Assembly: GCF_013620825.1 (NCBI RefSeq)
Contig: NZ_NJIC01000027.1
Location: 1-40,318, forward strand
DNA: 40,318 bases
From: Rhodanobacter sp. PCA2
GTDB taxonomy: Bacteria; Pseudomonadota; Gammaproteobacteria; Xanthomonadales; Rhodanobacteraceae
Direction: 5' to 3'
How positions within the stretch are numbered: position 1 is the stretch's first letter; each line of letters opens with the position of its first letter. Made by a program: the position numbers and the translations under genes. Below are positions 13,456-29,878 of this stretch, one piece after another. Below the pieces are notes generated by a model. It did not search any database and was not told the DNA's origin. It worked only from the letters and a program-made list of their open reading frames with translations.

Positions 13456-13536
13456 GCGCCGCTTGCGATTGTATCGCTGCGTACCAGCCCCATGTGGAAC
13501 GGATCGCGGCCTGCCGCTCGTTCCTCACGACCCTCC

Positions 13537-15303
<1,767 letters not shown>

Positions 15304-15329
15304 GCGGGTGTCCGCCCTACCCCGTTGTC

Positions 15330-15780
15330 GTCATTCCGGCGAAGGCCGGAGGCGCTTCACAACAGCGAAGCTGGTCATCCAGTGCCTTTCCGCTTCGATC
15401 AACGAAGTCGCTGGGTCCCGGCTTTCGCCAGGACGACGGAGGCGGAGCACTCCGCATCGCCTGGGCGGACACCAAGTCCTCCTGTGGCCGTCATTCCAGC
15501 GAAAGCTGGAGGCGCTTCACAACAGCGAAGCTGGTCATCCAGCGCCTTTTTGCTTCGATCAACGAAAGTCACTGGGTCCCGGCCTTCGCCGGGACGACGG
15601 ATGCGGAGCGCTCCGCATCGCCTGGGCGGACACCAAGTCTTCCTGTGGCCGTCATTCCAGCGGAAGCTGGAGGCGCTTCACAACAGCGAAGCTGGTCATC
15701 CAGTGCCTATTCGCTTCGATCAACGAAAGTCACTGGGTCCCGGCCTTCGCCGGGACGACGGATACGGAGCGCTCCGCATC
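15330..15780. repeat. Three tandem ~160-bp repeat units
   Basis: Units begin at gtcattcc at 15330, 15490 and 15651 (spacing 160 and 161 bases). Each has a left arm (gtcattccagcgaaagctgg or close), a shared core ggaggcgcttcacaacagcg, a right arm that is an imperfect inversion of the left (ttcgccgggacgacgg), and a spacer starting with a palindrome, perfect in unit 2 (GATGCGGAGCGCTCCGCATC, 15600-15619). Unit 3 ends at this palindrome and runs into the 3' end of the convergent serine hydrolase gene, whose stop codon it contains. The arms match the elements at 113-187 and 17074-17189. Confidence 0.9.
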
Positions 15781-16956
15781 CGCCGCCTGCTTGATCGCCT
15801 CGACGAACGCGCGCCGCCCGGCCACGAGTTCCTTCGAGGTCGCGGCCGGCCACGAGGCCACCTGCGCGATCACCAGCTTGCGCGCGGGATCGACGTAGAC
15901 CATCTGCCCGAAGATGCCGATGGCCGCGTAGCTGCCGTCGCTGTCCGTCCACCACAGGTAGCCGTAGCCTCGGTCCGGCGCGTCGGTGCTCGCATGCTCG
16001 CGGGTGGCGCCGTGCAGCCAGGCCTCCGCGATCGCCTGCTTGCCGTCGATGCGCCCGCCTTCCAGCATGAACTGACCCAGCCGCGCGTAGTCGCCCAGCG
16101 TGGCCGAGAGGCCGCTGCCGCCGGTGTCGCTGCCATCGCATTCGTCCTTGATCCAGTAGGCGTCGGCAGCCATGCCGTAGGGCTTCCAGAGCGCCTCCGA
16201 CAGGTAGGCCGCCAGCGAACGGTGCGTGGCCCGTTGCACCAGGATGCCGAGCAGGTCGGTCTCCGCGGTGTTGTAGTTCCAGTGCGTGCCGGCCGGCCAT
16301 TGCCGCGGCTGTTTCATCAGGTACGACAGCACGTGCGCGCGGCCGTCGACGCAGGCGCCCAGGTACATCTGCGCCACGTCCGACTTAGCGTCGTCGTAGT
16401 CCTCGTTCCAGTGCACGCCCGAGGTCATCGTCAGCAGCTGCTCCACCGTGACGTCGGCGTAGGCGCTGCCGCGCAGCTCCGGGATGTAGGTGCCGAGCGT
16501 GTCGTCCATGCCGTGGATGTAGCCCTGCTGCAGGGCCATTCCCAGCAGCACGGAGGTCACCGACTTCGCCACGGAGAACGAGGTCCAGCGCTGCTGTGGC
16601 CCGAAGCCCAGCGCGTAGCGCTGCAGCCGCACGCGGCCGTCCTGCAGCACCATCACGCCGGCGACGTGGTGCTTCTCCATGTAGTCGCCCAGCCAGACCG
16701 CACCGTCGCGTCCGTCCACCGCCAGCGGCTTGCCTTCCGGCAAGGCATGCGTGTGCGTGCCATGCGCCGCGCGGTCGCTGGGGAAGCGTTCGTACATCCG
16801 CCGGAACTGCGCATCGCGTTCGGCCTGCGGCCAGAACAGCACGCCTTCGCGTTGCTGGCCGATGCTGGGCCTGGCCTGCTCGCGCGCGAGCGACGGCAGC
16901 GAAATGCCCAGGCACAGGGCAACGAGGATGAGGGAGGTGCGAAGATTCGAAGGCAT
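15730..16956 (-). CDS. Exported serine hydrolase, beta-lactamase/PBP fold
   Basis: A 408-residue protein with a signal peptide (MPSNLRTSLILVALCLGISLPSLA) and a class C beta-lactamase-type domain. The nucleophile motif is S128-V-A-K131 in TSFSVAKSVTS, and the second element is WNYNTAETDLLG (Y228). Family members include esterases, D-peptidases and the nylon oligomer hydrolase NylB, so activity cannot be named. The last residues, DAERSVSVVPAKAGTQ, are encoded by the repeat array, and the TGA at 15730-15732 lies in repeat unit 3. The true ancestral C-terminus was probably slightly different. Repeats flank the gene on both sides. Confidence 0.88.
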   Translation of the reverse strand: MPSNLRTSLILVALCLGISLPSLAREQARPSIGQQREGVLFWPQAERDAQFRRMYERFPSDRAAHGTHTHALPEGKPLAVDGRDGAVWLGDYMEKHHVAGVMVLQDGRVRLQRYALGFGPQQRWTSFSVAKSVTSVLLGMALQQGYIHGMDDTLGTYIPELRGSAYADVTVEQLLTMTSGVHWNEDYDDAKSDVAQMYLGACVDGRAHVLSYLMKQPRQWPAGTHWNYNTAETDLLGILVQRATHRSLAAYLSEALWKPYGMAADAYWIKDECDGSDTGGSGLSATLGDYARLGQFMLEGGRIDGKQAIAEAWLHGATREHASTDAPDRGYGYLWWTDSDGSYAAIGIFGQMVYVDPARKLVIAQVASWPAATSKELVAGRRAFVEAIKQAADAERSVSVVPAKAGTQ

Positions 16957-17073
16957 GTCGGCGTGGCGCGGTAGCAACGGAAAGGCCGGCATGGCCGGGA
17001 GCCTTCATGGTACCCAGAACGGCCACAGGCCTGCGATGTTGGACTCTGCCGTGCGCCGCACGAGCCAGATGTC

Positions 17074-17189
17074 GCTCGTCATCCCAACGAAGGCTGGAGG
17101 CGCTTCACAACGGCGAAGCTGGTCATCCGGTGCCCGCAAGCCACGGAACACCAAGGCACTGGATTCCTGCGTTCGCAGGAATGACGAGC
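17074..17189. repeat. Dispersed inverted repeat between two serine hydrolase genes
   Basis: Bounded by gctcgtcat at 17074-17082 and its inverted copy atgacgagc at 17181-17189. The interior includes ggaggcgcttcacaacggcg and gaagctggtcatcc, almost identical to the core of the 15330-15780 units, then ggcactggattcctgcgttc resembling the element at 113-187. It therefore joins the two versions into one family. The 3' end of the next serine hydrolase gene lies 11 bases beyond it. Confidence 0.85.
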
Positions 17190-17199
17190 AAGTGATCTG

Positions 17200-18846
17200 T
17201 CAATCGGACCTTCCCTGGTGCTTCGTGGCCGGAACGAAGCGCAGGTCCTGGTAGTCCCAGCTGAAATCCGCCAGCGGCGAGACGGCCTTCATGGTCATCC
17301 GGTCGATGCTGCCATCGGGATGGAGCGCGAAGGTGACGTAGGCGTCCTCCACGTCGGGCATCGCCCAGTGCGTGCGGAAGGTGTCGTATTGCACGTGCTC
17401 CAGCGTGCCGTGCATCCCGGGCGAACGATCGAAGCTGATGTGCAGCGCGCCGCGCTTGTCCAGGCCGATCGTGGCGTTGCCGTACCACGGGTCGGTGTAG
17501 ACGCCGGCATAGCCGGACAGCGGCAGCGACGGCCCGCGTTCCGGGTGCGTGGCCGCGTGTTTGTCGCGCAGCGCCGCGATGGCCTTGGCGTGGGCGTCGT
17601 CGAACATCCGCTTGTAGCCGGCGATCCAGTCGGGCGAAGGCAGCCCCAGCAGGGTGTCGAGCAGGTGCTCGCGCATCGCGAACAAGGCGCCGACGTCCTC
17701 GGAGTTGAGCATGACGGCGAAAGCCGCATGCTTTTCCGGAACGATCACCACCGCCGATATGCCGCCCAGCACGCCGCCGAGATGGGTGACGATCATGTGC
17801 CCGCGGTAGTCCTGCACCTCGAAGCCCAGCGCGTAGGCATCGAACTGCGGCTGTGCCAGGGCGACCTGGGGCGGCAGCGGATCGATCGGGATCAGCGTCT
17901 GCGGCGTCCACATCATCTTCGACGCTGCCGCGCTGAAGATCCGCTGGTCGCCATCCAGCTGCCCGCGGTCCAGTTGCAGCCGCAGCCAGTTCCCCATGTC
18001 CGCCGCGCTGACCTGCAGCCCGCCGGCCGGCGCGAACACGTCGCCGGTCATCACCGTGGAAAGCACCGCCTGCTTGCCGACGCCGCGCACCGGCGTGGTG
18101 TCCCTGGCGTGCAACGCCACCTGGTTGGCGGTACGCGCGTCGATGCTGGTCCGCGCATCGCGCATCCGCAGCGGGCCGAGGATGTGCTGCTGCACGAAAT
18201 CCTCCCACCGCTGGCCCGAGACGGACTCGACCAGCTGGCCCGCCACGATGTACAGCACGTTGTCGTAGTCGTAGCCGCTGCGGAACGAATGAGCGGGCTT
18301 GAGGTAGCGGATGTCGTGCACCAGTTCCGCGCGGGTGCGGTCGGTGGTCGGGAACATCATCAGGTCGCCCTGGCCCAGGCCCAGGCCGCTGCGATGCACG
18401 AGCAGGTCGGTGACGGTCATCTCGCTGGACGCGTAGGGATCGTACATGCGGAAGCCGGGCAGCCTGTCGGCCACGCGGTCGTCCCAGTGCAGCTTGCCTT
18501 CATCGACCAGGATCGCCAGCGCGGCCGCGGTGAAGGCCTTGGTGTTGGAACCGATCGGGAAGATGGTGTGTGCGTCCACCCTGGCGCTGGCGCCCAGTTT
18601 GCGCACGCCCCAAGCGTAGGTGCTGGCCTTGTCCCCATCGACGACCACCGCCGCCATGCCCGGGGTGTCGAAGACGCGCATGGCCTTGTCCGCGTAGGCA
18701 TCCAGCGCCGACGGCGAAACGGCCTGCGCCCGCGTGGTTTGCCCGATGCCCAGGGACAGCAACACGACCAGCGCAAGCGCCACCGTGGCCGGCCAGCGGA
18801 ATGCGCCCTGCAGGCCACGCCCGGGGAGTCGATGGATCATCAGCAT
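17200..18846 (-). CDS. Exported serine hydrolase, beta-lactamase/PBP fold with C-terminal domain
   Basis: A 548-residue protein with an N-terminal hydrophobic export signal (about 18-41, ending TTRAQA). The beta-lactamase-type domain shows all three motifs: S100-N-T-K103, Y194-D-N196 and H355-L-G357. After about residue 440 there is a DUF3471-like domain (LSGYAGVYTDPWYGNATIGL), common in this family. Likely substrates are small peptides or amides outside the cytoplasm. ATG at 18846 or 18840 both follow GAAGAGGGC. It is the last gene of a run that includes an RpiR regulator, a peptide transporter and a dipeptide epimerase, which favours a peptide-processing role. Confidence 0.9.
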   Translation of the reverse strand: MLMIHRLPGRGLQGAFRWPATVALALVVLLSLGIGQTTRAQAVSPSALDAYADKAMRVFDTPGMAAVVVDGDKASTYAWGVRKLGASARVDAHTIFPIGSNTKAFTAAALAILVDEGKLHWDDRVADRLPGFRMYDPYASSEMTVTDLLVHRSGLGLGQGDLMMFPTTDRTRAELVHDIRYLKPAHSFRSGYDYDNVLYIVAGQLVESVSGQRWEDFVQQHILGPLRMRDARTSIDARTANQVALHARDTTPVRGVGKQAVLSTVMTGDVFAPAGGLQVSAADMGNWLRLQLDRGQLDGDQRIFSAAASKMMWTPQTLIPIDPLPPQVALAQPQFDAYALGFEVQDYRGHMIVTHLGGVLGGISAVVIVPEKHAAFAVMLNSEDVGALFAMREHLLDTLLGLPSPDWIAGYKRMFDDAHAKAIAALRDKHAATHPERGPSLPLSGYAGVYTDPWYGNATIGLDKRGALHISFDRSPGMHGTLEHVQYDTFRTHWAMPDVEDAYVTFALHPDGSIDRMTMKAVSPLADFSWDYQDLRFVPATKHQGRSD

Positions 18847-18902
18847 GCCCTCTTCGATGGCGTTGTCCGCTGCCGGCTGCCGCGTCGACGTGCCGAATGC
18901 GG

Positions 18903-19832
18903 TCAGGTCCTGGTCTTGCCGTTGCGTTTGTGCGGCGTGCCGCCGCCCTGCGGCTTTTTCGCGGATGCGGGCGCCTTGCGCTCCCTGGCGACAGGCGGCG
19001 CCTCGACATAGCCCACCAGCTTCTGGCGCAGCTGCGTGATGTCGCCGATGCGGTCGTACATATCGCCCTGCGCGCGGGTGACCGCGCCGATCAGCAGGCT
19101 CAACAGGCTCATGGCGGCCGTGAAGTTGTGCCACGTCCGCTCCATCTCGGCCGGCAGCATCAGCACGTGGTCGGTGAGCTGGCGCGCCCAGTAGCACTGG
19201 CTGTCGGTGATGATCGCCAGCGGGATGCCGCGCGCCGCGCATTCTTCGGCCAGGATGCGGAAGTGCCGCGAATAGCGCCGGAAATCGATCAGCAGCACGC
19301 AGCTCTTCGCGCTGGAATCGAGCAGCAGGTCGGTATAGGCGCCGTCCAGCCCTTCCTCGAACCGCGTGCACGGCTTGACGCTCTGCATCAGGGTGGCAAA
19401 GCCCAGTCCGAGAAAGCGGCCCTGGTGGAAGCTGGCGACCGAAACGCGGTCGGCCTTCACCAGCAGGTCGACGACGCCCTTCCACTCCGGCGTGCCGGTC
19501 AGCGCATGCGCCGTGGTGACGCCCTGGATCTCGGCCTTGAGGCTTTCGGACATCGTGGCGGGATCGCCCACCACTTCCGGGTTCCGGTACAGCTGCAACC
19601 ACGGCGCGTCGCCGCGCAGTTCCTCTTTCAGCTCGTTGAGGCCGTCGTAGCCGAGGTTGCGCAGGAAGCGCCCCACCGTCATCGCGCTGACGCCCACGCG
19701 CTTGCCCAGCGACGAGGCATTCTCGAACGGGATGCCGCCGGGGTTCTGCAGCAGGTAGGCCGCGATCTTCTGCTCGGCCTTGGTGAAGCCGTCCCAATGG
19801 TCTTTCAGCTTTTTCTGCAGGTCTTTGATCAT
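18903..19832 (-). CDS. MurR/RpiR-family transcriptional regulator
   Basis: A 309-residue regulator: N-terminal HTH_6 domain (about 1-80, with FTKAEQKIAAYLL and ENASSLGKRVGVSAMTVGRFLRNLGYDG) and a SIS sugar-isomerase-like domain (about 120-260). The tail after 280 is Lys/Pro/Gly-rich and probably disordered. Members sense phosphosugars; MurR senses MurNAc-6-phosphate. ATG at 19832 begins at MIKDLQKKL, the family start. It lies 10 bases after the transporter stop and 56 bases before the next hydrolase, so it is inside the operon and probably controls it. Confidence 0.92.
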   Translation of the reverse strand: MIKDLQKKLKDHWDGFTKAEQKIAAYLLQNPGGIPFENASSLGKRVGVSAMTVGRFLRNLGYDGLNELKEELRGDAPWLQLYRNPEVVGDPATMSESLKAEIQGVTTAHALTGTPEWKGVVDLLVKADRVSVASFHQGRFLGLGFATLMQSVKPCTRFEEGLDGAYTDLLLDSSAKSCVLLIDFRRYSRHFRILAEECAARGIPLAIITDSQCYWARQLTDHVLMLPAEMERTWHNFTAAMSLLSLLIGAVTRAQGDMYDRIGDITQLRQKLVGYVEAPPVARERKAPASAKKPQGGGTPHKRNGKTRT

Positions 19833-19842
19833 CAGCGCACGC

Positions 19843-21165
19843 TCATCGGACTGGCACCGGGGTGCCGCCGACGTCTCCATGTTGCCCCACCCCGCGATGG
19901 CGTCGGCCAAGCATAAACAAAAGCGCGGCGGACAAGCCCGAAACCGCGCCGGCCAGCATGAAGAACAGGCCGTGGTTCATCTGGCTCCACAGGGTCCCGA
20001 GCGCGCCGGCGAGCAGGTTGCCGAAGAAACCCGCGAAGAACCACGTGGCGATGCTGGTGGCGCGGAACCCTTCCGGCGCCATGCGCCCGAACAGGGCCAG
20101 GCCCACGGGCAGGATGTGCAGCTCGCCGATGGTGAACACCACGAACCAGACGAACAGCCATACCCAGCTGGCGCGCGTGCCGTGCGCTTCGCTCCAGGCG
20201 GCCACCAGGCCCAGGGCCACGAACGATGCGCCGACGATCGTCGCGCCGAAGGCCATCCGCGCCAGCAGCGGCGTATCCACGCCGCGCTCCGCCAGCCGCG
20301 CCCAGCGCGCCAGAAGGAAGGGCGTGAAGACGAACACCGCCAGCGAGTTGATCGACTGGAACCAGGTCATCGGGATCGACCAGTCCGCCGTCAGGTGCCG
20401 GTCGATGCCCGTGTCGGCCCACAGCGCGATGGTGTTGCCGTTCTGCTCGTAGGCGCCGCGGAAGATCACCACGATGGCGGCGATGCCGATCAGCAAGGCA
20501 AAGCGGTCGCGCGCGGCCCGGTCCATCGGCGCCCGCGCCGCGCGCGCTTCGGCCCCGGGCGCCGGCTCCGGCGGCAGGTAACGGCGCCCGGCGAGGTAGA
20601 TCACCAGCGAGAGCAGCATGCCGATGCCGGCCGCGGCAAAGCCCCAGTGCCAGCCGTAGGCTTCGCCCAGGGTCCCGCACACCAGCGGCGAGAGGAACCC
20701 GCCCAGGTTGATGCCCACGTAGTAGATGTTGTACGCGCTCTTGCTGCGCGCATCGCCATTGCGGTACAGCCCTTCGACCTGGCTGGCGAGGCTGGGCAGG
20801 AAGAGGCCGTTGCCCAGCGCGATCATGCACAGCGCCGGGTAGAACAGGGCCTCGTACGACATCATGAAGTGCCCGAGCGCCATCGTCGCGCCGCCGATCA
20901 CCACGGCGCGATCCTTGCCCAGCCAGCGGTCGGCGAGCATGCCGCCGAACACCGGCGTGAAGTAGACGAAGGCGGCGTACGTGCCATACACCAGCGACGC
21001 GTATTCCTGGTCCATGTCCAGGTGCATGGTCATGTAATAGACCAGGATCGCGCGCATGCCGAAGAAGGAGAACATCTCCCACATTTCGGTCAGGAACAGG
21101 ATGGTCAGGCCACGCGGGTGGCCGAACCAGCTTCTTTCGGTGGGTGGCGGCACGAACACGGACAT
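19843..21165 (-). CDS. POT/PTR-family proton-dependent peptide transporter
   Basis: A 440-residue MFS protein of the POT (PTR2) type. Marks are the N-terminal FLTEMWEMFSFFGMRAILVYYM (ExxER-like region with E then MR), GGMLADRWLGKDRAVVIGG in the loop after helix 2-3, NIYYVGINLGGFLSPLVCG, and IFRGAYEQNGNTIALWAD. About 11-12 helices are visible. These carriers import di- and tripeptides with protons. The start overlaps the epimerase stop: ATG at 21165 gives TGATG, and GTG at 21168 would give GTGA. Either way translation is coupled. It is somewhat shorter than the usual 480-500 residues. Confidence 0.92.
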   Translation of the reverse strand: MSVFVPPPTERSWFGHPRGLTILFLTEMWEMFSFFGMRAILVYYMTMHLDMDQEYASLVYGTYAAFVYFTPVFGGMLADRWLGKDRAVVIGGATMALGHFMMSYEALFYPALCMIALGNGLFLPSLASQVEGLYRNGDARSKSAYNIYYVGINLGGFLSPLVCGTLGEAYGWHWGFAAAGIGMLLSLVIYLAGRRYLPPEPAPGAEARAARAPMDRAARDRFALLIGIAAIVVIFRGAYEQNGNTIALWADTGIDRHLTADWSIPMTWFQSINSLAVFVFTPFLLARWARLAERGVDTPLLARMAFGATIVGASFVALGLVAAWSEAHGTRASWVWLFVWFVVFTIGELHILPVGLALFGRMAPEGFRATSIATWFFAGFFGNLLAGALGTLWSQMNHGLFFMLAGAVSGLSAALLFMLGRRHRGVGQHGDVGGTPVPVR

Positions 21166-22229
21166 CACACGGATGCTTCCCCTCGCTCATCGCCCGCGAC
21201 GGGCTGCGCCTGCAGCGCCCCGGGGCTGCCCCAGAGTGTATCGGGACACCAGATGGCGCCGTCCTCGTACACCACCGACGGCGTGTAATCGACGCGCAGG
21301 CTGAGCGGGCCGTCGAGATCCACCACGTCGCACAGCTGGCCCACCACGAAGGCCGGCGCCATCGCCAGCGAGGAGCCGCCCATGTTGCCGACCATCAACT
21401 CGTAGCCCTGCCGGCGCGCTTCCGCGGCGATGGCGAGCGCCTCGGTCAGGCCGCCGCACTTGTCCAGCTTGATGTTGATGACGTCGACGCGCCCGGCAAC
21501 CTTCGCCAGGTCGCCGAGATGCTGCACGCTTTCGTCCGCGGCGATGCGGATCGGCCGTTCCAGGCCGTCCAACCACGCCTCGTTGCCCATCGGGAACGGC
21601 TGCTCGACCACGTCCACCCGCGCCTCCACCAGGGTCGGCAACAGGCGCGCAAACGACTCGCGCGTGAAGCCCTGGTTGGCGTCGACCATCAGCCAGACGT
21701 CCGGGCGCGCCTTGCGCACGGCCAGCACGCGCGCGGCGTTGCGGTCGTCGTCGGTGAGCTTGAGCTTGATCGCCCTGGCCTGTGCATAGTCTATGGCGTG
21801 GCCGGCCATCGCATCGGGTTCCTCGGCACCCAGCGTATAGGTGGTGAGCAACGGCCGCGGCGCCGCAAGTCCGGCGAGTTCCCACACCGGCTTGCCCGCG
21901 CGCCTGGCTTCCAGCTCCCACAGGGCGCAGTCCAGCGCGTTGCGCGCACCGCCGGCCGGCAGCAGGGTCTGCAGCTCTTCGCGCGTGATGCCCGCCTCGA
22001 CCCGCGCGCGCATCGCTTCGACCTGCGCCAGCATCGATGCGGAAGTGTCGTGGTGGTAGTAGACGCCTTGCGCTTCGCCTCGTCCCACCCGGCCCTGCCC
22101 GTCGACCAGCTCGACGATCAGCGCATCGAACGCGGTAAAGGTGTAGCCGGTGATATGGAACGGGGCCTTGGTGGCCCAGCTCCTGGTCGTCGCCCGGAGG
22201 CGCAGCCGCCCGCCGTCATGAATAGTCAT
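21165..22229 (-). CDS. Dipeptide epimerase (L-Ala-D/L-Glu epimerase-like, enolase superfamily)
   Basis: A 354-residue enolase-superfamily protein of the muconate-lactonizing subgroup. Catalytic lysines are K155-L-K157 and K254 in INIKLDKCGG; metal ligands are D183 (VDAN), E209 (VEQPF) and D232 (ADES). Near the C-terminus D304-L-D306 is the DxD motif that, in characterised dipeptide epimerases, binds the ammonium group of the dipeptide. Together these support epimerisation of the second residue of a dipeptide, as in L-Ala-D-Glu from murein. Exact specificity cannot be read. A Shine-Dalgarno (AGGGAAA) precedes ATG 22229. Stop overlaps the transporter start. Confidence 0.92.
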   Translation of the reverse strand: MTIHDGGRLRLRATTRSWATKAPFHITGYTFTAFDALIVELVDGQGRVGRGEAQGVYYHHDTSASMLAQVEAMRARVEAGITREELQTLLPAGGARNALDCALWELEARRAGKPVWELAGLAAPRPLLTTYTLGAEEPDAMAGHAIDYAQARAIKLKLTDDDRNAARVLAVRKARPDVWLMVDANQGFTRESFARLLPTLVEARVDVVEQPFPMGNEAWLDGLERPIRIAADESVQHLGDLAKVAGRVDVINIKLDKCGGLTEALAIAAEARRQGYELMVGNMGGSSLAMAPAFVVGQLCDVVDLDGPLSLRVDYTPSVVYEDGAIWCPDTLWGSPGALQAQPVAGDERGEASV

Positions 22230-22293
22230 GCGTGTTTCCCTGGAATGGAGTACGCGGCGGCGGTGCTCTGCCGCCGCCGCGCAAACGGAGTCA

Positions 22294-24303
22294 TCAGTAG
22301 TGGACGTTGAAGCTGACCATCCCGAGCGCCAGGATCAGCCACGCCAGGTAGATCGCCGCCAGCGCCAGCAGGCTCTCGCCCAGCAGTACCCAGCGGCCGC
22401 GGCGCGGCTTCATCCAGCTGCGCACCGCGTGGATCACGATGGCTAGAACGCCCAGCAGCGCGAGCACGCCCAGGACGTAAAGCAGGTACATCCAGGGCGT
22501 CGCGCCGCCTTCCAGCAGGATGGTCTGGTCGGCGGATATGGCCACCATCAGGCCCAGCCAGCCGAGCATCGTGACGAACAGCACCAGCACGCCCAGTCGC
22601 GAATACAGGCGCGAGCGGCGCCGACCGGCATCCAGTTCGAGCCGGCGGCCGTAGTGGCGGCGCACCAGCCATCCGCACAGCCAGCTCAGCAAGGCGCCCA
22701 GCAGCAACAGCAGCGCAAGCGTGCCCCAGAGTTCGATGCTGCCCAGCGCGTGCAGCCCGGTCACCGACTGGAAAATCATGACCGGAGGCAGGGAGTCGCT
22801 GGCCCAGTACTGGATGTTGCCGTTCGCGTCCGCGACGAAGTCCAGGCGATAGGGACCATCCACCTGCTGGTACTTCAGCGGCCCCACTTCGCGCCAATGC
22901 ATCGGAGCGCCGGAGGTGTTCATGAAAGCCGGGCTAAGGATCGTGCCGTCGGGCAAGGCGGATATCTGGAGCTGGGTCAGCGCATACAGCATGCTCAGGG
23001 CGCTTTCGTTGCGCCGGCTGGACAGGTACCAGCCCGCGACCCGCGCCGCGTCGGCCTTGGCCGTGGCAACGGTGGGCGGGTTCGACGCGGCGACCGGGAA
23101 GTAGCGGTCGAGGAAGGCGCTGAAGATCGCGGTGCGGATCACCTCGGCGTTGCCCGCCGTGCCGGCGCTGTTGAACGACATGAAGACACCGACGTTCGCA
23201 TCCGTCAGCAGGTGCAGGTCGGAGTGGAAGTAATCCGTGTCGCCGGCGTGGCCGATGATGGTCTGGCCGTTGCGGTTCTCCTGGTAGAAACCCAGCGCGT
23301 AGCCGTTGAGCCCCGGCGCCTCGGTGCGTTGCGGCGTGTGCATCAGGGTAGTCGTGGCCGGCGTCAGGATCTGGCCGCCTTGATAGTTGCCGCCCTGCAG
23401 CTGGGCGATCATGAAGTGCGCCATGTCCAGCGCGGTCGAACTCATCGCGCCGGCCGGCGACGGATCGACGATCTCGAAGGGCTTCAGCTTGCCGTCGGAA
23501 GCCGTGCTGTAGCTGTCGCCCATCAGCGGCGCAAGCCGTTCCGGCAAGGGCTGGCGGAACGTGGAGTGCTGCATGTCCAGCGGCTTGTAGATGTGCTGCT
23601 CGATGTAATCGTCGAAGTCCTGCCCGGACACCCGCTGCACGATGTAGCCGGCCAGGCCGCAGCCGTAGTTGGAGTAGGCCACCACCTGGCCCGGCGGGAA
23701 GATCCGCACCGGCAGGTGGGTCTTGAGGTAATGCTCGAGGTTGACCGGCTTGCCGTCGGTGGTGATGAGATCGCGCGCGGTTTCCTCGAACCCCGCGGTA
23801 TGCGTCATCAGGTTGCGCAGGGTGATCGGCTTGCCCTGGAACGGCGGGATCTTGAAATCGAGGTACGTGTCGACATCGGCGTCCAGGTCCAGCTTGCCTG
23901 CCTCCACCAGTTGCATCACGGCGGTCCAGGTGAACAGCTTGGAGGTGGAACCGATGCGGAACAGCGTGTCCGCAGGGGACGGCACCGTCCGCTTCTCCAG
24001 GTTGTTGTGGCCGTACCCCTTGGCGAAGATCACCTGGCCGTCCTTGACCACCGCGATCACGCCGCCGGCCACGTCGCCGCGCTGCAAGGCGAACGGCACC
24101 ATGCCGTCGAGGAAGCTCGACAGGTCCGCCGCGGTGAGCGCATGCGTCTGTCCGTCCGCATTCGCGGACGGCGCGGCTGCAGGCACGGGCACCGTTGCAG
24201 GATTGGCCGGTGCAGGATTTGGCGACGGCGGCACCTGCGCCATCGCCAACCCGGCGACGAAAGTCGCCGCCAGGGATGCGAGGAATTTCACACAGCGATT
24301 CAT
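22294..24303 (-). CDS. Serine hydrolase (beta-lactamase fold) with C-terminal membrane domain
   Basis: A 669-residue protein: signal peptide (1-22, ending AGLAMAQ), a Pro/Ala-rich linker (about 23-50), a beta-lactamase-type domain with S119-T-S-K122, Y210-S-N212 and H352-A-G354, a region to about 515, and four membrane helices (about 525-547, 568-590, 604-627, 638-662). The catalytic domain is thus exposed in the periplasm and tethered to the inner membrane. This layout occurs in a group of serine hydrolases of unknown substrate. It lies 25 bases after the TonB receptor stop and 64 bases before the epimerase start. Confidence 0.9.
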   Translation of the reverse strand: MNRCVKFLASLAATFVAGLAMAQVPPSPNPAPANPATVPVPAAAPSANADGQTHALTAADLSSFLDGMVPFALQRGDVAGGVIAVVKDGQVIFAKGYGHNNLEKRTVPSPADTLFRIGSTSKLFTWTAVMQLVEAGKLDLDADVDTYLDFKIPPFQGKPITLRNLMTHTAGFEETARDLITTDGKPVNLEHYLKTHLPVRIFPPGQVVAYSNYGCGLAGYIVQRVSGQDFDDYIEQHIYKPLDMQHSTFRQPLPERLAPLMGDSYSTASDGKLKPFEIVDPSPAGAMSSTALDMAHFMIAQLQGGNYQGGQILTPATTTLMHTPQRTEAPGLNGYALGFYQENRNGQTIIGHAGDTDYFHSDLHLLTDANVGVFMSFNSAGTAGNAEVIRTAIFSAFLDRYFPVAASNPPTVATAKADAARVAGWYLSSRRNESALSMLYALTQLQISALPDGTILSPAFMNTSGAPMHWREVGPLKYQQVDGPYRLDFVADANGNIQYWASDSLPPVMIFQSVTGLHALGSIELWGTLALLLLLGALLSWLCGWLVRRHYGRRLELDAGRRRSRLYSRLGVLVLFVTMLGWLGLMVAISADQTILLEGGATPWMYLLYVLGVLALLGVLAIVIHAVRSWMKPRRGRWVLLGESLLALAAIYLAWLILALGMVSFNVHY

Positions 24304-24328
24304 GAGGCGTTGACTCCCTTGGTCATGC

Positions 24329-26644
24329 TCAGAAGTCGAGGCCGACGGTCACGCCGACCGTACGCGGCGGCACGAAGGCCGCGGAGAACGGCGTGCCCCG
24401 CGGGTCGGTGGTTTCCGAGGAAAGCGAGGTGATGCCGCGCGAGTTGGTCACGTTCTTGACGTAGGCGCTGATCGTCCAGTCGCCGAAATACGTGCCGGCA
24501 TGCAGGTCGACGCCGTGGTAGGCCGGCACCGAATACCGCGGCCCGGTCACGGACAGGAAATCCGCCATGCGCGCGCCCACGTAGCGGTAGCTACCGCCCA
24601 CGAAACCCGACCAGCCGCCGCCCAGCGGGAAGTTGTACTCCACGCCCACGTTGGCGTTCCACTTCGGCACCCACGGCAGGCGATCGCCGTTGTAGCCGTA
24701 CAGGCCCGGCGGCGTATCCGCCGTCAGTTTCGCATCGGTCCAACTGGCGTTCGCCGACAGCACCAGGCCGCGCGCAGGCTCGTACTGCCAGTTGACCTCC
24801 ACACCCTGGCTCCTGGCCTTGCCGCCATTGCTGAGGAAGGCGAAGTTGTCGGCGACGGTGGTGAGCTGGATATGGTTCCAGTCGATGTAGAACACGTCGG
24901 CGTCGAAGACCATCCTTCGATCCAGCAAGGTGGACTTGAAGCCGATTTCATAGCTGGTCAGCTTGTCGGGCGCAAAGCTCAGCGGCGCGCCCAGGCCGGG
25001 CGGCACGCCCACGTTCGCGCCACCGGGGCGGAAGCCGGAAGCCACGCGCACGTAGGCCATCAGGTTGTCGTTGAACTTGAAACTGGGATTGACCAGGTAG
25101 GTCGTCGTGGAATCCGTGCTGCGGATGGTGAATTGGCTCGGGCCCACGAGCATGCCGCTGCCCACCTGCGTGTACGAGGTGCTGTCGTGGGTATAACGGG
25201 CGCCGACCAGCACGCTCAGCTGCGATGTGGCATGCCAGGTCGCATCGGCGTAGCCGGCCCATTCCTTGAAGACGCCCGGGCCGACGGACAGGTCGCCCAG
25301 GTTGGGCAGATCGATCGGCACCCCGGTCGTGGCGTCGAAAACGTTGACGTGCTGATGGTTCGTGGTGTTCTCGCGCGTGTAGAACGCGCCAACTCGCCAC
25401 TCGATGGCCTGGTCCGCACGCGACTGAAGCCGCGCATCCTGGGTGAATTTCCCGAGGCTGACCGGCTGGCTTACCGAATAGCCGCCATTGGCAAGGCCGA
25501 AAGCGGGGTTGAGTATCGGGCCATAGGCGGCGGTGACGTCACCGACCTGGTTGACCTTCTGCGTGCCATAGCTGGTCGAGGACACCAGCGTCGCCAGGCC
25601 GAGATCCGCCTTGACCTCGAGGTCGTAGAGGCGGTACTTGATCTTCAGCAGGCCGGTACTCGCCGCCCTGCTCTGCTTCTGGTAGCCGTAGATGGGCTTC
25701 AGCGTGGCCGGGTCCACTTCCACGCCGGAGTTGACCAGGCCGTCGCTGCCGAGGTTCTGGGCCAGCGCCGACAGGCGCACCGATACCTTGTCGCTGGGCG
25801 TCCACAGCACCTGCGCGCGGCCGCCGGCGACCTTGTCCGCGTTGACCTCGGACTTGCCGGTGGCGACATTGTCGACATAGCCGGGGTCGTCGCGGTGATA
25901 GGCATTCACCCGCAGCGCCAGTTTGTCCTCCACCAGGGGCAGGTTGAACATGGCGCGCTCGGTAAAGCCGCTGCCGCCACCGTCCACGCCGGTATAGCCG
26001 GCGCTCACGCGGCCATAGGCACGGGTGGAGTCCGGCGGCGTGGTGACGAATTTCAACAGGCCGCCCAGCGAGTTCGAGCCGTACAGCGTGCCCTGCGGAC
26101 CGCGCAACACCTCGATGCGCTCGATGTCGGCCGGGTCGATGTCCGGCGTCAGCAGGCTGCCCTCGGCATACACCGTGCTGGAACCATACGGCGCCTCGTC
26201 GATATAGGTGCTGACGCTCGCGTTGGACTGGCTGCTGCCCGACGTGATGCCGCGCAGCACCAGCTGCGTTTGCCCCGGCGTCAGGGAAATCATGTTGAGG
26301 CCGGGTATCTGGGTGGCGTAATCGGCCAGGTTGTTGGCGCCCGCGCGGCGAAGGTCGTCGCCGGAAACCGCCGACACCGCCATCGGCACGCTCTGCAGCG
26401 GTTCGCTGCGCTTGTTCGCGGTGACCACGATCGTCTTCAGCTCGATCGGTGCCTTGCTGCTGGTGGGACGTTGATCCTGTTTCGCACCGGCACCCGTTGC
26501 GGACGCCTGGCTTTGCGCGCCTGTCGCAAGGTCGCCACCGTCAGGCACCGATGGCCTTGCTGTTGCAGTGAAGGACCCAAGCAGGCCCATGGCTATGGCC
26601 AGACCCAGGCCATGACGTCGCAGATGCGGCTGATGAAATTGCAT
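24329..26644 (-). CDS. TonB-dependent outer-membrane receptor
   Basis: A 771-residue receptor with a signal sequence (to about 30), a TonB-box-like IELKTIVVTANKR (about 67-79), a plug domain (about 83-190, LQSVPMAVSAVSGDDL, RIEVLRGPQGTLYGSNSLGG) and a barrel ending in GLDF with terminal Phe. Conserved FRPGGANVG lies in the barrel. Plug phrasing resembles receptors of the IroN/Fiu-like and carbohydrate/peptide groups rather than classic siderophore types. The start at 26644 has GGGGAGGGGAGAAC upstream. Being the first gene of the peptide-type operon, it is the likely outer-membrane entry route; the ligand is unknown. Confidence 0.93.
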   Translation of the reverse strand: MQFHQPHLRRHGLGLAIAMGLLGSFTATARPSVPDGGDLATGAQSQASATGAGAKQDQRPTSSKAPIELKTIVVTANKRSEPLQSVPMAVSAVSGDDLRRAGANNLADYATQIPGLNMISLTPGQTQLVLRGITSGSSQSNASVSTYIDEAPYGSSTVYAEGSLLTPDIDPADIERIEVLRGPQGTLYGSNSLGGLLKFVTTPPDSTRAYGRVSAGYTGVDGGGSGFTERAMFNLPLVEDKLALRVNAYHRDDPGYVDNVATGKSEVNADKVAGGRAQVLWTPSDKVSVRLSALAQNLGSDGLVNSGVEVDPATLKPIYGYQKQSRAASTGLLKIKYRLYDLEVKADLGLATLVSSTSYGTQKVNQVGDVTAAYGPILNPAFGLANGGYSVSQPVSLGKFTQDARLQSRADQAIEWRVGAFYTRENTTNHQHVNVFDATTGVPIDLPNLGDLSVGPGVFKEWAGYADATWHATSQLSVLVGARYTHDSTSYTQVGSGMLVGPSQFTIRSTDSTTTYLVNPSFKFNDNLMAYVRVASGFRPGGANVGVPPGLGAPLSFAPDKLTSYEIGFKSTLLDRRMVFDADVFYIDWNHIQLTTVADNFAFLSNGGKARSQGVEVNWQYEPARGLVLSANASWTDAKLTADTPPGLYGYNGDRLPWVPKWNANVGVEYNFPLGGGWSGFVGGSYRYVGARMADFLSVTGPRYSVPAYHGVDLHAGTYFGDWTISAYVKNVTNSRGITSLSSETTDPRGTPFSAAFVPPRTVGVTVGLDF

Positions 26645-26703
26645 GACGTTCTCCCCTCCCCGACGGAATCGCATGGACATCCCGTGAACATCCCACGGCC
26701 ACT

Positions 26704-26746
26704 TTGATATCCAAGTAACATTAATCTGTCAAGATAATTTTTTATC
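26704..26746 (-). promoter_or_regulatory. Promoter and palindrome upstream of the TonB-receptor operon
   Basis: On the minus strand a perfect -35 box TTGACA (26727-26732) is separated by 17 bases from TATCAA (26704-26709, 4 of 6 matches to the -10 consensus). The -10 lies within an imperfect palindrome TTGGATATCAAA. Directly upstream is GATAATTTTTTATC (26733-26746), a perfect 5-4-5 inverted repeat. Both are candidate operator sites, possibly for the RpiR-family regulator encoded in the operon; that link is inference. Confidence 0.65.
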
Positions 26747-26802
26747 ATATGCCGGCATGCGCCCTCCCCCGGAGAAAGCCCGATCACGCGAGGCCGCACA
26801 CG

Positions 26803-26829
26803 AAAAAGCCCTCCGGGCAGCGGGCTCTT
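26803..26829 (-). terminator. Weak terminator-like hairpin
   Basis: Read leftward, AGCCC (26822-26826 side) and GGGCT (26807-26811 side) form a short stem followed by TTTTT. The stem is only five base pairs with a ten-base loop that can form an alternative small hairpin. No recognised gene lies immediately upstream of it, so it might end a small RNA or be read-through protection. Confidence 0.4.
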
Positions 26830-27042
26830 CGCAACTGGCCGGCGCGAACCGCGGGCCGCAAGGAAGCTGGCGGCGCGCCACTGGCAGCACGCTCGCGCTT
26901 TCGCGCTTCGCATCAAGCCTCGCTTAAGCAATCTCGCCCGATCGGAACCCTCGCTGCCGGCCGACGTAGAGAAGTGAATCCCCTCACGCGCCGGAAGCGT
27001 TCATGACGGAGGTGGAGGATTCAGGCGCACGCAGCCCGACAT

Positions 27043-27075
27043 GAAAAAGCCGCCCCTGCGTGAACAGGGACGGCT
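27043..27075 (-). terminator. Rho-independent terminator of tRNA-Leu
   Basis: On the minus strand AGCCGTCCCTG, a TTCACG loop and CAGGGGCGGCT form a stem with one mismatch, followed directly by TTTTTC. It starts 7 bases after the tRNA CCA end. Confidence 0.9.
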
Positions 27076-27081
27076 CTGCAT

Positions 27082-27168
27082 TGGTGCCCGGAGCGGGGAT
27101 CGAACCCGCATACCCGTGAGGGTGAGGGATTTTAAGTCCCTTGCGTCTACCAGTTTCGCCATCCGGGC
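27082..27168 (-). tRNA. tRNA-Leu (anticodon TAA)
   Basis: An 87-base tRNA on the minus strand with encoded CCA. Acceptor arms are GCCCGGA at the 5' end and TCCGGGC before ACCA. The anticodon loop is CTTAAAA, giving anticodon TAA, which reads UUA/UUG leucine codons. A long variable arm (CCTCACCCTCACGGGT region) identifies a class II tRNA. The T arm contains GGTTCGATCC. A -10-like TACGAT lies at 27202-27207. Confidence 0.97.
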
Positions 27169-27375
27169 GGCGGGCGGAATGCCCGTGTGCAGGCGGCGCG
27201 GATCGTAGCATGCACCCGCGAGGCGGCCGTCGCGACGATGGATCGGGTGCGCCGTTCCGGCTAAGAACGATCACGTGAAGGCCTTAGCTCTGCATCGGCC
27301 CGTGCAGTTGCATAGGGGAAGGCGCCGCAAATATGTCCCCAGCGCGTCGCATCAGCGGCCTGTTCCGCCCTGTTC

Positions 27376-27660
27376 TCAGGCCGGCACTGCGACCAGTTTC
27401 ACGCCCACGGCATGGCAGACCTTTGCCAAGGTCTCGAATCGGGGTTTGGCACCCGGGCGCAGCGCCTTGTACAGGCTCTCGCGCCCCAGCCCGGATGCCT
27501 CGGCAATCTCCGCGATGCCGCGCGCCTTGGCAACGTGCCCCAGCGCGCGCAGCAGTTCGTCGGTGTCGCCGTCGGCCAGCACTTGCGTCAGGTATTCGGC
27601 AATCGCCGCCTCACTGTCCAGCAGGTCGGCCATCTCGAAGGGTCGAAGTTTTGCGTTCAT
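27376..27660 (-). CDS. higA: HigA-like antitoxin (addiction module antidote protein)
   Basis: A 94-residue protein starting MNAKLRPFEMADLLDSEAAIAEYL, the standard opening of the addiction-module antidote family paired with RelE/Gp49-type toxins. A helix-turn-helix is visible at about residues 48-80 (GIAEIAEASGLGRESLYKALRPGAKPRFETLAKV). Such antitoxins bind both their toxin and the operon operator. The start lies one base after the toxin stop, so translation is coupled with the toxin frame. The antitoxin is intact although its partner is interrupted. Gene order is toxin first, as in higBA. Confidence 0.92.
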   Translation of the reverse strand: MNAKLRPFEMADLLDSEAAIAEYLTQVLADGDTDELLRALGHVAKARGIAEIAEASGLGRESLYKALRPGAKPRFETLAKVCHAVGVKLVAVPA

Positions 27661-27661
27661 G

Positions 27662-27940
27662 TCATGCCTCCTTCGCCAGTTGCTGGGCATGGCGTATGTC
27701 GCGCCGCTGCGATGCCTTGTCACCGCCGCAGAGCAACACCACCAACACGCCAGCCCGTAGCGTGAAATACGCGCGGTAGCCTGCGCCCACGTCGATCCGC
27801 ATTTCCGAAACGCCCTCGCCTACTGGTTTGGTGTCGCCCAGGTTGCCGGCGCTGGCGCGCTCGATCCGCCGCGCTATTGCCACGCGGGCTTTCAGGTCGC
27901 GCAGTCAGCGATGCCATGCCGCGGATGCCTCGGTGTGCAT
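27662..27940 (-). pseudogene. higB: RelE/HigB-type toxin gene with in-frame TGA
   Basis: From ATG 27940 the frame reads MHTEASAAWHR, a TGA stop at 27905-27907, then LRDLKARVAIARRIERASAG and on through VSEMRIDVGAGYRAYFTL and LLCGGDKASQRRDI to the stop at 27662. The two parts together match the length and motif order of the roughly 95-100-residue RelE/Gp49 killer family, where a residue such as Arg normally stands at the stop position. A CGA to TGA change would explain it. A shorter product could start at GTG 27883 but would lack the first strand and helix. The toxin is therefore probably inactive, unless the stop is a sequencing error or is read through. Confidence 0.85.
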
Positions 27941-27961
27941 GACGGTATAGAGCACGGAGCG

Positions 27962-27990
27962 AATGTATCCACATGGATACAAAACGACAA
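27962..27990 (-). promoter_or_regulatory. Promoter with palindromic operator of the toxin-antitoxin locus
   Basis: TGTATCCACATGGATACA (27964-27981) is a perfect 7-4-7 palindrome. On the minus strand it lies inside a promoter, -35 TTGTCG (27985-27990), 17-base spacer, -10 TACATT (27962-27967), starting 22 bases before the toxin ATG. This is the expected position of an antitoxin autoregulatory site. Confidence 0.75.
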
Positions 27991-28061
27991 GCCAGGGCTT
28001 GCCGGGCTTTCGGACGCAAGCCGATGATTGAGGTGGATGCCTCTAGACAGCATCGGACAAG

Positions 28062-28104
28062 AAAAAGGCCGGAACCCTTGCTGTTGCTGGGGTTTCCGGC
28101 CTTC
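28062..28104 (-). terminator. Rho-independent terminator of ssrA
   Basis: Read leftward, AAGGCCGGAAACCCC and GGGTTCCGGCC form a long stem around an AGCAACAGCAA loop, followed by TTTTTC. It begins about 25 bases after the CCA end of tmRNA. Confidence 0.92.
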
Positions 28105-28128
28105 TTGGGACGCCGTTGGACGGCTTGT

Positions 28129-28480
<352 letters not shown>

Positions 28481-28503
28481 GGGGAAAACGGTATGGCTGG
28501 ACA

Positions 28504-28533
28504 AGTATATGGGGTCGCGGCGCAAGGCTTCAA
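28504..28533 (-). promoter_or_regulatory. Promoter of ssrA
   Basis: On the minus strand TTGAAG (28528-28533), an 18-base spacer and TATACT (28504-28509, 5 of 6 matches) lie 24 bases before the mature tmRNA 5' end. This leaves a short leader that RNase P would remove. The site lies just beyond the fabV stop codon. Confidence 0.7.
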
Positions 28534-28562
28534 TGCGATGCGCCGCTCCCGGCCCGTGCCTG

Positions 28563-29765
28563 TTACATCTCCACGCAGTCGAAGCGGCGATCCGGGTCCA
28601 CCTCGGCGTCGTAGTCGACGTCGCTGCGGTCGAAGCCGAACAGCTTGAGGAATTCGTGCTTGTAGCCGGCGTAGTCGGTGACCTCGCGCAGCGTCTCGGT
28701 GGTGACGTTGGGCCACAGCGCCTTGCAGGCATCCTGCACGTCGCTGCGCAGCTCCCAGTCGTCCAGGCGCACGCGGCCCTCCTCGTCCACCGGCGTCGCC
28801 GCACCGTCGGCGCGGTAGAGGCGGTCGTGGAACAGGCGGTTGATCTGTTCGATGCAACCTTCGTGGATGCCCTTTTCCTTCATGATGCGGAAGGCGATGG
28901 AGACGTACAGCGGGATCACCGGGATGGCGGCGCTGGCCTGGGTGACCACCGACTTCATCACGCCCACGCGGGCGTCCAGCCCGGCATGGCGCCCGCGCAA
29001 CGCCGTCGCGGTGTTGTCGAGATGCTGCTTGGCCTGGCCCAGGGTGCCGTGCCAGTACATCGGCCAGGTGATCTCGGTGCCGATGTAGCTGTAGGCGATG
29101 GTCCTGGCGTTCGGCGCCAGCACGCCGGCCTTGGCCAGCGCGTCCATCCACAGCGCCCAGTCCTCGCCGCCCATCACGGTGACGGTGTCCTTGATCTCCT
29201 GCTCGGTGGCCGGCTCCACGCTGGCCTGGATCACCGTGTCCCGGTTGGTGTCGACCGAACTCGCGGTGAACGTCTCGCCGATGGTCTTGAGCGCGGAGCG
29301 CACCACTTCGCCGGTATCCGGCAGCTTGCGCACGGGCGAGGCCAGCGAGTAGACGACGAGATCCACCTGGCCGCCCATCTCGTTCCTGATGATCTCGATG
29401 GCGCGCTCGCGGGTCGCGTTGGCGAAGGCGTCGCCATTGATGGACTTGCTGTACAGGCCGGCCTGCTTGGCCAGCTTGTCGAACGCGGCGGCGTTGTACC
29501 AGCCGGCGGTGCCGGTCTTGTCCTCGCTGCTGGGCTTCTCGAAGAACACGCCCAGCGTGGCCGCGCCGTAGCCGAACGCGGCGGTGATGCGCGAGGCGAG
29601 GCCATAGCCGGTGGAGGCGCCGATCACCAGCACGCGCTTCGGACCCTTGCCGTCGTCGTGGATGGCGGCCCGGGTGGTGGCGATCTGTTCGGCCACGTTG
29701 AGCTCGCATCCGACCGGATGGGCCGTGACACAGATGAAGCCGCGCACTTTGGGTTTGATGATCAC
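28563..29765 (-). CDS. fabV: Trans-2-enoyl-ACP/CoA reductase, FabV type
   Basis: A 400-residue NADH-dependent enoyl reductase that completes each fatty-acid elongation cycle. The start is GTG 29765 with GGAG eight bases upstream; the protein then begins with the conserved (M)[19 protein letters not shown]. The NADH loop is GASTGYG (49-55), and the active site Y237-x8-K246 in [12 protein letters not shown] is the FabV spacing, distinct from FabI. FabV enzymes are known for relative triclosan tolerance. No fabI is visible in this window. Length equals the family norm. Confidence 0.96.
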
Positions 29766-29878
29766 GAATGATGCTCCACGGGAAATTCGCAAGGCGGCAT
29801 CTTAACCAACGTGGCCAACATGCGCTGCGGTAGGGAGCCGTGCGCCGCGGCCTCCCCGTGGAGCGGGGCTGTCTCCGG

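Follow-up and report, generated by a model that had tools for sequence, protein, structure and literature searches.

The 40,318-nucleotide contig NZ_NJIC01000027.1 of Rhodanobacter sp. PCA2 (assembly GCF_013620825.1; "the window" below means this whole stretch of DNA) has a G+C content of 69% and is a single contig of a genome of 3.9 Mb. On its minus strand, from position 26644 to 17200, lie six closely spaced genes that encode, in order, a TonB-dependent outer-membrane receptor, a serine hydrolase of the SxxK type (SxxK-1), an enolase-superfamily epimerase, a transporter of the POT family, a regulator of the RpiR type and a second SxxK hydrolase (SxxK-2). The successive intergenic distances are 25, 64, -4, 10 and 56 bp, the negative value denoting a 4-bp overlap of the epimerase and POT genes. 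All six proteins exceed the curated Pfam cut-offs, which bears out the layout given in an earlier note on this DNA, where six genes of these families were described on one strand with short gaps or overlaps and were taken to form a complete route for scavenging peptides with D-residues.

The receptor gene (24329..26644) encodes 771 amino acids from its likely start, with PF07715 and PF00593 above cut-off; the open reading frame opens at 26680, and the start at 26644 is favoured, by eye, by a stretch resembling a ribosome-binding site and by a signal peptide. SxxK-1 (22294..24303, 669 amino acids) combines a signal helix, an S12-type serine hydrolase domain (PF00144, 233 bits; motifs S119-x-x-K122, Y210-S-N212 and H352-A-G354), a beta domain at about 424-514 and four C-terminal membrane helices, in agreement with the membrane tether previously claimed for it; its AlphaFold2 model has a predicted local distance difference test (pLDDT) score of 85.9. 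SxxK-2 (17200..18846, 548 amino acids) likewise has a signal helix and an S12-type hydrolase domain (PF00144, 197 bits), with the motifs S100-x-x-K103 (SNTK), Y194-D-N196 and H355-L-G357 (HLG), as well as the DUF3471 domain (PF11954, 86 bits). The remaining genes are those of the epimerase (21165..22229, 354 amino acids; PF13378/PF02746), the POT (19843..21168, 441 amino acids) and the regulator (18903..19832, 309 amino acids, ATG at 19832), which has HTH_6 (PF01418) and SIS (PF01380) domains above cut-off. Three of the seven PF00144 matches in the genome fall within the window, more than chance would give. The third of these genes (15730-16992) was considered as a member of the locus and rejected: it lies 207 bp off, and the nearest orthologous loci (L031-L033) have no third SxxK gene of its kind.

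Related genomes keep these genes together. The epimerase was sought in 99 relatives, 65 of which gave a match at a loose threshold (E ≤ 0.001), many being distant paralogues; 40 stretches were fetched around the better matches, 80 loci (the best 80 of 575) were added from a scan of named genomes, and locus genes were predicted by script and annotated by similarity, with seven loci present twice dropped from the order counts. Apart from the window, 19 distinct loci have the order TonB receptor, SxxK, epimerase, POT, RpiR, and 8 have all six genes in order; conservation of order, which the earlier note had put forward as a check, is therefore found, and the homologues are not scattered without linkage. 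Compared with the nearest orthologous locus (L031), the ratio of non-synonymous to synonymous substitution rates is 0.21-0.29 across the six genes. A search for the POT in the 99 genomes gave 18 hits past 1e-60; all 16 at 56-100% identity have an epimerase hit no more than about 70 bp away (one of the 16, in G030, is a fragment), and the other two, at 38% identity, are located elsewhere. In this close set POT and epimerase are not found apart, except where an amino-acid permease replaces the POT.

Among the best 80 of 575 epimerase loci, the co-directional run around the epimerase includes SxxK genes in 66, DgcN in 44, a TonB receptor in 43, POT in 39, the family c17 in 28, RpiR in 21, an amidohydrolase in 17, an M19 dipeptidase in 8 and an amino-acid permease in 7. 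The DgcN, M19 dipeptidase and amidohydrolase genes, the last presumably of a D-aminoacylase-like kind, are carried by sister loci, and in L082 and L110 (Luteibacter jiangsuensis) the six-gene set is immediately followed by DgcN. Family c17 (L109:16826-17947 and 33 relatives), which stands beside DgcN in sister loci, consists of membrane proteins of about 375 amino acids that look like amino-acid transporters; the members tested had no Pfam or PDB match, and a role as a catabolic enzyme was dropped in view of the transporter-like sequence as judged by eye.

A conserved promoter precedes the receptor gene (26704..26732, minus strand: TTGACA, a 17-bp spacer containing ATGTTA, and TATCAA), and adjoining its -35 box is an inverted repeat, GATAAAAAATTATC (26733..26746, minus strand), a candidate RpiR operator. 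A scan for sigma-70 promoters, which requires the -10 box to end in T, for that reason found none (1.1 expected by chance), and the comparative motif was used instead. The pattern TTGAC[AT], 16-18 bp, TA[AT]CA occurs upstream of the TonB gene in 21 of 26 RpiR loci (the window counted, duplicates not), which is not an independent count since the pattern was read off these loci, and in none of 34 regions upstream of TonB genes in loci without RpiR. Columns outside the pattern are also conserved in the 21 aligned loci, namely TGATAtnnAAATAtCA ahead of the -35 box and the ATGTTA of the spacer. The motif TTGACANNNNNATGTTANNNNGATAWCA was then sought with at most two mismatches in 18 genomes, 12 with the locus and six genus-mates without it. 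All 14 sites belong to copies of the locus and come from 10 of the 12 locus-bearing genomes; there are none in the six genus-mates, and the reversed motif gave none in the 18 genomes. The window promoter is the sole site in its genome at this threshold. Thirteen sites precede known copies of the locus, among them one without an adjoining RpiR gene (L034) and one that precedes SxxK-1 without a TonB gene (L037), and the fourteenth revealed a second five-gene copy in Dyella jiangningensis. The two copies in that species (L173 and L090) have the same promoter core.

Conserved order, a conserved locus-specific promoter and POT-epimerase linkage in 16 of 16 cases support the earlier view of these genes as a linked set, which is probably co-regulated. 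We infer that the inverted repeat may be bound by RpiR. The assignment of this protein to the MurR/RpiR family stands, given its HTH_6 and SIS domains, but the sensing of phosphosugars that came with it is doubtful: the usual phosphosugar-binding SIS pattern is GxGxS / SxS, whereas the conserved stretches in 27 aligned sequences of this SIS domain are SF..g.FLG and D.RRY. The name SapR was rejected for this protein, which scored 121 bits where the cut-off is 500.

The site of the locus varies among related genomes. We compared nine genus-mates downstream of the gene at 28563-29792, which we take to be fabV. In G005 and G012 this gene directly abuts the ATP-binding cassette (ABC) gene that occupies 13492-15303 in the window, so that about 13 kb of the window (15307-28563), comprising a transfer-messenger RNA (tmRNA), tRNA-Leu, the locus and the third SxxK gene, is extra relative to that site. 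The tmRNA follows without the locus in five genus-mates (G013, G003, G002, G010 and G006), and neither was found at this site in G001 and G009. Two other features of the region are a small helix-turn-helix protein (27376-27723) that, by eye, resembles an addiction-module antidote and adjoins tRNA-Leu, and an intergenic stretch (15300-15800) whose reading frames repeat one peptide several times.

The epimerase keeps the catalytic K155-x-K157 and K254, the metal ligands D183/E209/D232 and, as the earlier note had seen, the DxD motif (D304/D306). Its nearest PDB relatives are 4gfi and YcjG, and the best named model is that of DgcA (NF042940), with 372.7 bits against a cut-off of 400. Of 125 aligned rows (the window, 119 sequences from loci and five PDB chains), 99 have loops of the GVYY type, eight have both R28 and R58 (YcjG, 4gfi and six loci) and 18 belong to neither group (three PDB chains and 15 loci); with eight duplicates dropped and one further pair (L048, L134) left in, these become 91, 8 and 18. 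Arginine at 28 or 58 is present in none of the 91 GVYY epimerases and in all eight Ala-Glu/DgcA-type sequences, and the window has G28/Y58; in the structural work on YkfB, an arginine reportedly contacts the Glu side chain. In the tree, the window sequence belongs to a 15-row clade (support 99/98) within one of 21 rows (99/99), apart from the YcjG/4gfi/DgcA group, which has weaker support (87/89). We assign it to a clade designated "ITGY / GVYY / GNM". Because this clade lacks the two arginines common to all eight Ala-Glu/DgcA-type sequences, the epimerase is, judged by its residues, not of the Ala-Glu type.

The six Arg-bearing loci adjoin DgcN and LysR genes and, mostly, also a gamma-glutamyltransferase, a diaminopimelate (DAP) decarboxylase or a glutamate symporter (GltS), neighbours that fit D-Glu and murein peptides; the last three are found in none of the 80 loci (best 80 of 575). 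In L063, L064, L066 and L067, an Arg-bearing epimerase of the DgcA type lies with SxxK hydrolases, DgcN, gamma-glutamyltransferase and DAP decarboxylase, a combination that looks like a cluster for catabolism of murein tripeptides or D-Glu.

DgcN itself has no match in the genome of the window (G000), where the epimerase accordingly cannot depend on N-acyl amino acids made by DgcN. Among eight genomes with the five-gene order, DgcN is lacking in G000, G009, G021, G033 and G048, and one or two copies are present in G005, G006 and G027; among 20 genomes reached through loci, 13 have it and seven do not. The latter include the POT-locus genomes G100, G101, G102, G108 and G109, some of which are the same strains as in the first set. 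That several genomes retain the epimerase but have no DgcN speaks for a direct action on peptides in this locus. Where the two genes adjoin, DgcN beside the six Arg-bearing epimerases (L061, L063-L067) scores 514-524 bits, over the family cut-off of 480, and beside eight GVYY-type epimerases (L046, L048, L049, L052, L054, L057, L058 and L070) 423-476 bits, under it, a comparison that covers hits next to a clear epimerase and sets apart L062, which belongs to neither group and scores 466. The split suggests that DgcN and epimerase diverged together.

The transporter belongs to the POT family (TIGR00924, 274 bits against a cut-off of 130.2; PF00854 above cut-off) and is an atypical member of it. 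Compared with solved POTs, it has M32 in place of the ExxER arginine (ExxEM, with FF), L124 in place of the lysine of transmembrane helix (TM) 4 and leucine in place of the SPVG serine, and keeps N154, E241, E349 and R39. In 44 locus POTs, counted without duplicates and an unrelated protein of L146, the ExxER arginine never occurs (Met in 22, Gln in 8, Ile in 6, Lys in 5, Leu in 2 and Glu in 1), the TM4 lysine is always absent and the SPVG serine is always leucine; the TM5 Asn (N154), TM7 Glu (E241), TM10 Glu (E349) and R39 are invariant, Asp takes the place of the TM8 Asn in 15, and Asn or Gln that of the first ExxE Glu in 14. In the predicted structure (pLDDT 85.9) there are 12 membrane helices, some of them split, and no HA/HB pair, as counted from the helix list; between TM6 and TM7 one helix ends at 193 and the next begins at 217, an interval about 55-60 residues shorter than in two solved POTs. 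In POTs, the ExxER arginine and a second positive residue meet the carboxylate of the peptide, according to two studies (PMC9309889, PMC6338836), the former of which also describes DtpC, an atypical POT that has lost the arginine and prefers a C-terminal lysine. The earlier assignment as an ordinary importer of di- and tripeptides is not supported in the light of these substitutions and the missing HA/HB helices. We read the nonpolar pocket as pointing to cargo with a nonpolar or blocked carboxyl end. The other three PF00854 proteins of the genome keep ExxERF, one of them encoded in a second POT-SxxK pair, about 1.2 kb apart (G000:C59:90210-93578).

A profile of 22 SxxK-1 sequences, searched against the PDB, matched best the DL-peptidase Lip3 (9sn1; E 3.2e-46, profile positions 79-499), with 2qmi close behind (1.2e-45). 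In Foldseek, Lip3 ranks third, over 488 columns that span the hydrolase and beta domains; other S12 proteins match the hydrolase domain nearly as well as Lip3 or better, and the near matches include D-stereospecific enzymes as well as esterases and beta-lactamases. Lip3 and Lip7 cleave the DL-amide bonds of syringafactin, and a Stenotrophomonas breaks down linearised orfamide by successive amide cuts, as described in PMC13188892, which also notes that few enzymes for the breakdown of lipopeptides and other D-residue peptides have been characterised. Four Stenotrophomonas genomes carry a sister locus (L136, L145, L154 and L157). The text of the primary orfamide study (PMC11203913) contains none of the terms sought in it, so this link is only suggestive. 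The solved relatives of the receptor are those for siderophores, pyrroloquinoline quinone (PQQ), B12 and haem, which, going by such likeness, tell nothing about its cargo.

What comparison shows is that the genes are linked in a conserved order behind a shared promoter motif, that epimerase and POT carry altered residues, and that SxxK-1 has a Lip3-like hydrolase plus beta domain. The loss of positive charges in both POT and epimerase points towards D-peptides other than ordinary or cell-wall ones. The explanation that we prefer, with middling confidence, is a dedicated operon, repressed by the RpiR that it encodes, through which the cell would feed on peptides with non-acidic, probably nonpolar D-residues, for example fragments of non-ribosomal lipopeptides. 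We infer a route, from its substrates and direction of flow to every catalytic step, in which the receptor would carry peptides to the periplasm, where both SxxK hydrolases, one of them tethered to the inner membrane, would cut D/L bonds. The atypical POT would then import small products of mixed chirality, and the epimerase would invert their C-terminal residue, leaving the rest to the usual L-peptidases of the cytoplasm. The genes would form a single transcript, repressed by RpiR sitting on the inverted repeat of the promoter until released by a ligand of the pathway. The D-peptide theme of the earlier note is kept by the Lip3-like relative, the DxD epimerase and the DgcN, M19 dipeptidase and amidohydrolase of sister loci; the word "complete" is not, the locus having no cytoplasmic peptidase.

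Several observations weigh against this explanation. The lost carboxylate clamp of the POT is awkward for free dipeptides, which the epimerase needs as cargo, and the lysine at the arginine position in 5 of 44 locus POTs leaves a charge in place. An amino-acid permease replaces the POT in six distinct RpiR loci (L035, L088, L089, L091, L093 and L098) and in the more distant L103, a swap more in keeping with free amino acids than with dipeptides, and two permease-type genomes (G113, G114) also lack DgcN. DgcN, which is an N-acetyltransferase, frequently accompanies other epimerases of the wider clade, whose original substrate may therefore have been an N-acyl-D-amino acid; in addition, 2 of the 91 GVYY epimerases have arginine at position 29, the position of R24 in YkfB, where the window has Y29. 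Foldseek ranks two 2qmi chains above Lip3 for SxxK-1, a single-sequence search puts 2qmi and Flp before Lip3 (third), and SxxK folds also occur in esterases and beta-lactamases. No peptide-specific protein is found among the solved relatives of the receptor. As for the promoter, the pattern is absent from 5 of the 26 RpiR loci (L043, L082, L092, where the DNA is incomplete, L096 and L143), and the motif has no match in the permease-type genomes G037 and G054, which have a variant, or at the second copies in G009 (L041) and G033 (L043).

The link to DgcN opens an alternative that is unlikely but deserves serious weight, in which the locus would be a DgcN-less remnant or branch of a D-amino-acid pathway and the epimerase a racemase of N-acyl-D-amino acids, its substrates (N-acylated amino acids or acyl-peptides) being imported or made by another acyltransferase. 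DgcA as the best named model, the presence of DgcN in more than half of the best 80 of 575 loci and directly after the same six genes in L082 and L110, and the apparent joint divergence of DgcN and epimerase all speak for it. Yet the DgcA score stays under the cut-off, the arginines of the DgcA-type sequences linked to DgcN and LysR are absent, the POT is strictly linked to the epimerase, and DgcN is missing from the genomes with the POT-type locus named above (G000, G009, G021, G033 and G048, and G100, G101, G102, G108 and G109, in part the same strains).

Scavenging of muropeptides, an option named in the earlier note, would mean that the locus imports and epimerises L-Ala-D-Glu and longer murein peptides in the manner of YcjG/YkfB. 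In its favour are the fold and catalytic residues, which are those of YcjG, the resemblance of the SxxK enzymes to DD-carboxypeptidases and AmpH (all below cut-off) and the membership of MurR in the RpiR family, and a published murein locus of a Bacteroidota symbiont (PMC10199937) combines SusC transporters of the TonB type with an Ala-Glu epimerase and a DD-carboxypeptidase. Against this stand the missing Arg28/Arg58, the occurrence of gamma-glutamyltransferase, DAP decarboxylase and GltS beside Arg-bearing relatives but in none of the best 80 of 575 loci, and the presence in G005 of both kinds of epimerase, which are hence not simply redundant; we consider muropeptides highly improbable. Self-protection, in which toxic D-residue peptides of neighbours would be taken up and destroyed and nutrition would be secondary, seems improbable to us. 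The Lip3-like hydrolase, the breakdown of orfamide by Stenotrophomonas and the lack of the 13-kb segment at the corresponding site of two relatives, a pattern that an accessory trait would show, are in its favour; a receptor, an importer and an epimerase exceed the needs of detoxification, however, the operon-specific promoter fits a catabolic repressor equally, and the orfamide study is silent on the terms sought.

Extending the preferred explanation of an operon for nonpolar D-residue peptides, we tentatively propose, as something rather less than probable, that it is a mobile, self-regulated catabolic unit, widespread in Gammaproteobacteria and with relatives in Alphaproteobacteria and Verrucomicrobia, in which a clamp-less POT subfamily and a non-Glu epimerase clade, both new, might have evolved together; the DgcN-bearing form would act on free D-amino acids and the DgcN-less form on dipeptides directly. 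If so, the gene set would predict which bacteria eat D-residue peptides such as lipopeptides. The promoter offers a single-site marker for the regulon, the specificity of the epimerase clade is easy to assay, and natural variation in the POT subfamily could test the role of the carboxylate clamp.

Searched by title or opening of the abstract, the open-access literature yielded no paper describing this gene set, in line with the earlier statement that no characterised system with exactly this composition is known; in the accessible part of PMC6090828, a dipeptide epimerase appears as a table entry with no locus. Several known systems nevertheless share parts of it. The YcjG/YkfB epimerases have the same enolase fold, KxK + K catalysis, metal ligands, DxD motif and peptide-handling neighbours (PMC5808125), but the window epimerase lacks the Arg28 of YcjG/4gfi, has Y29 for R24 of YkfB and no PYxRY loop, and is accompanied by a TonB receptor and POT rather than by murein endopeptidases. 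The murein locus of the Bacteroidota mussel symbiont (PMC10199937) similarly unites TonB-type uptake, an epimerase, a DD-carboxypeptidase and an inner-membrane importer of the major facilitator superfamily; it differs in having SusCD, AmpG, MurQ and glycoside hydrolases, sugar and murein genes that our locus lacks, and in an epimerase annotated there as of the Ala-Glu type. With the DgcN-DgcA pathway for D-glutamate, the locus shares an epimerase of the wider DgcA-like family and, in sister loci, an adjoining DgcN; it differs in the absence of DgcN from locus and genome, in other residues, in RpiR instead of LysR, and in the POT. SxxK-1, known from sequence and model, matches Lip3 of Paenibacillus over both hydrolase and beta domains, whereas the accessible description presents Lip3 and Lip7 as single enzymes, without an operon containing a receptor, importer or epimerase. 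DtpC has likewise lost the ExxER arginine (R21Y; PMC9309889), but our POT also lacks the TM4 lysine and the HA/HB helices, and its SPVG serine is replaced by leucine, not aspartate, if this position is equivalent to D392 of DtpC. Taken together, the six genes are a real and conserved set with a promoter of its own, which most likely serves the uptake and conversion of D-peptides; it varies on known systems of peptide scavenging and is unusual in its POT and epimerase.

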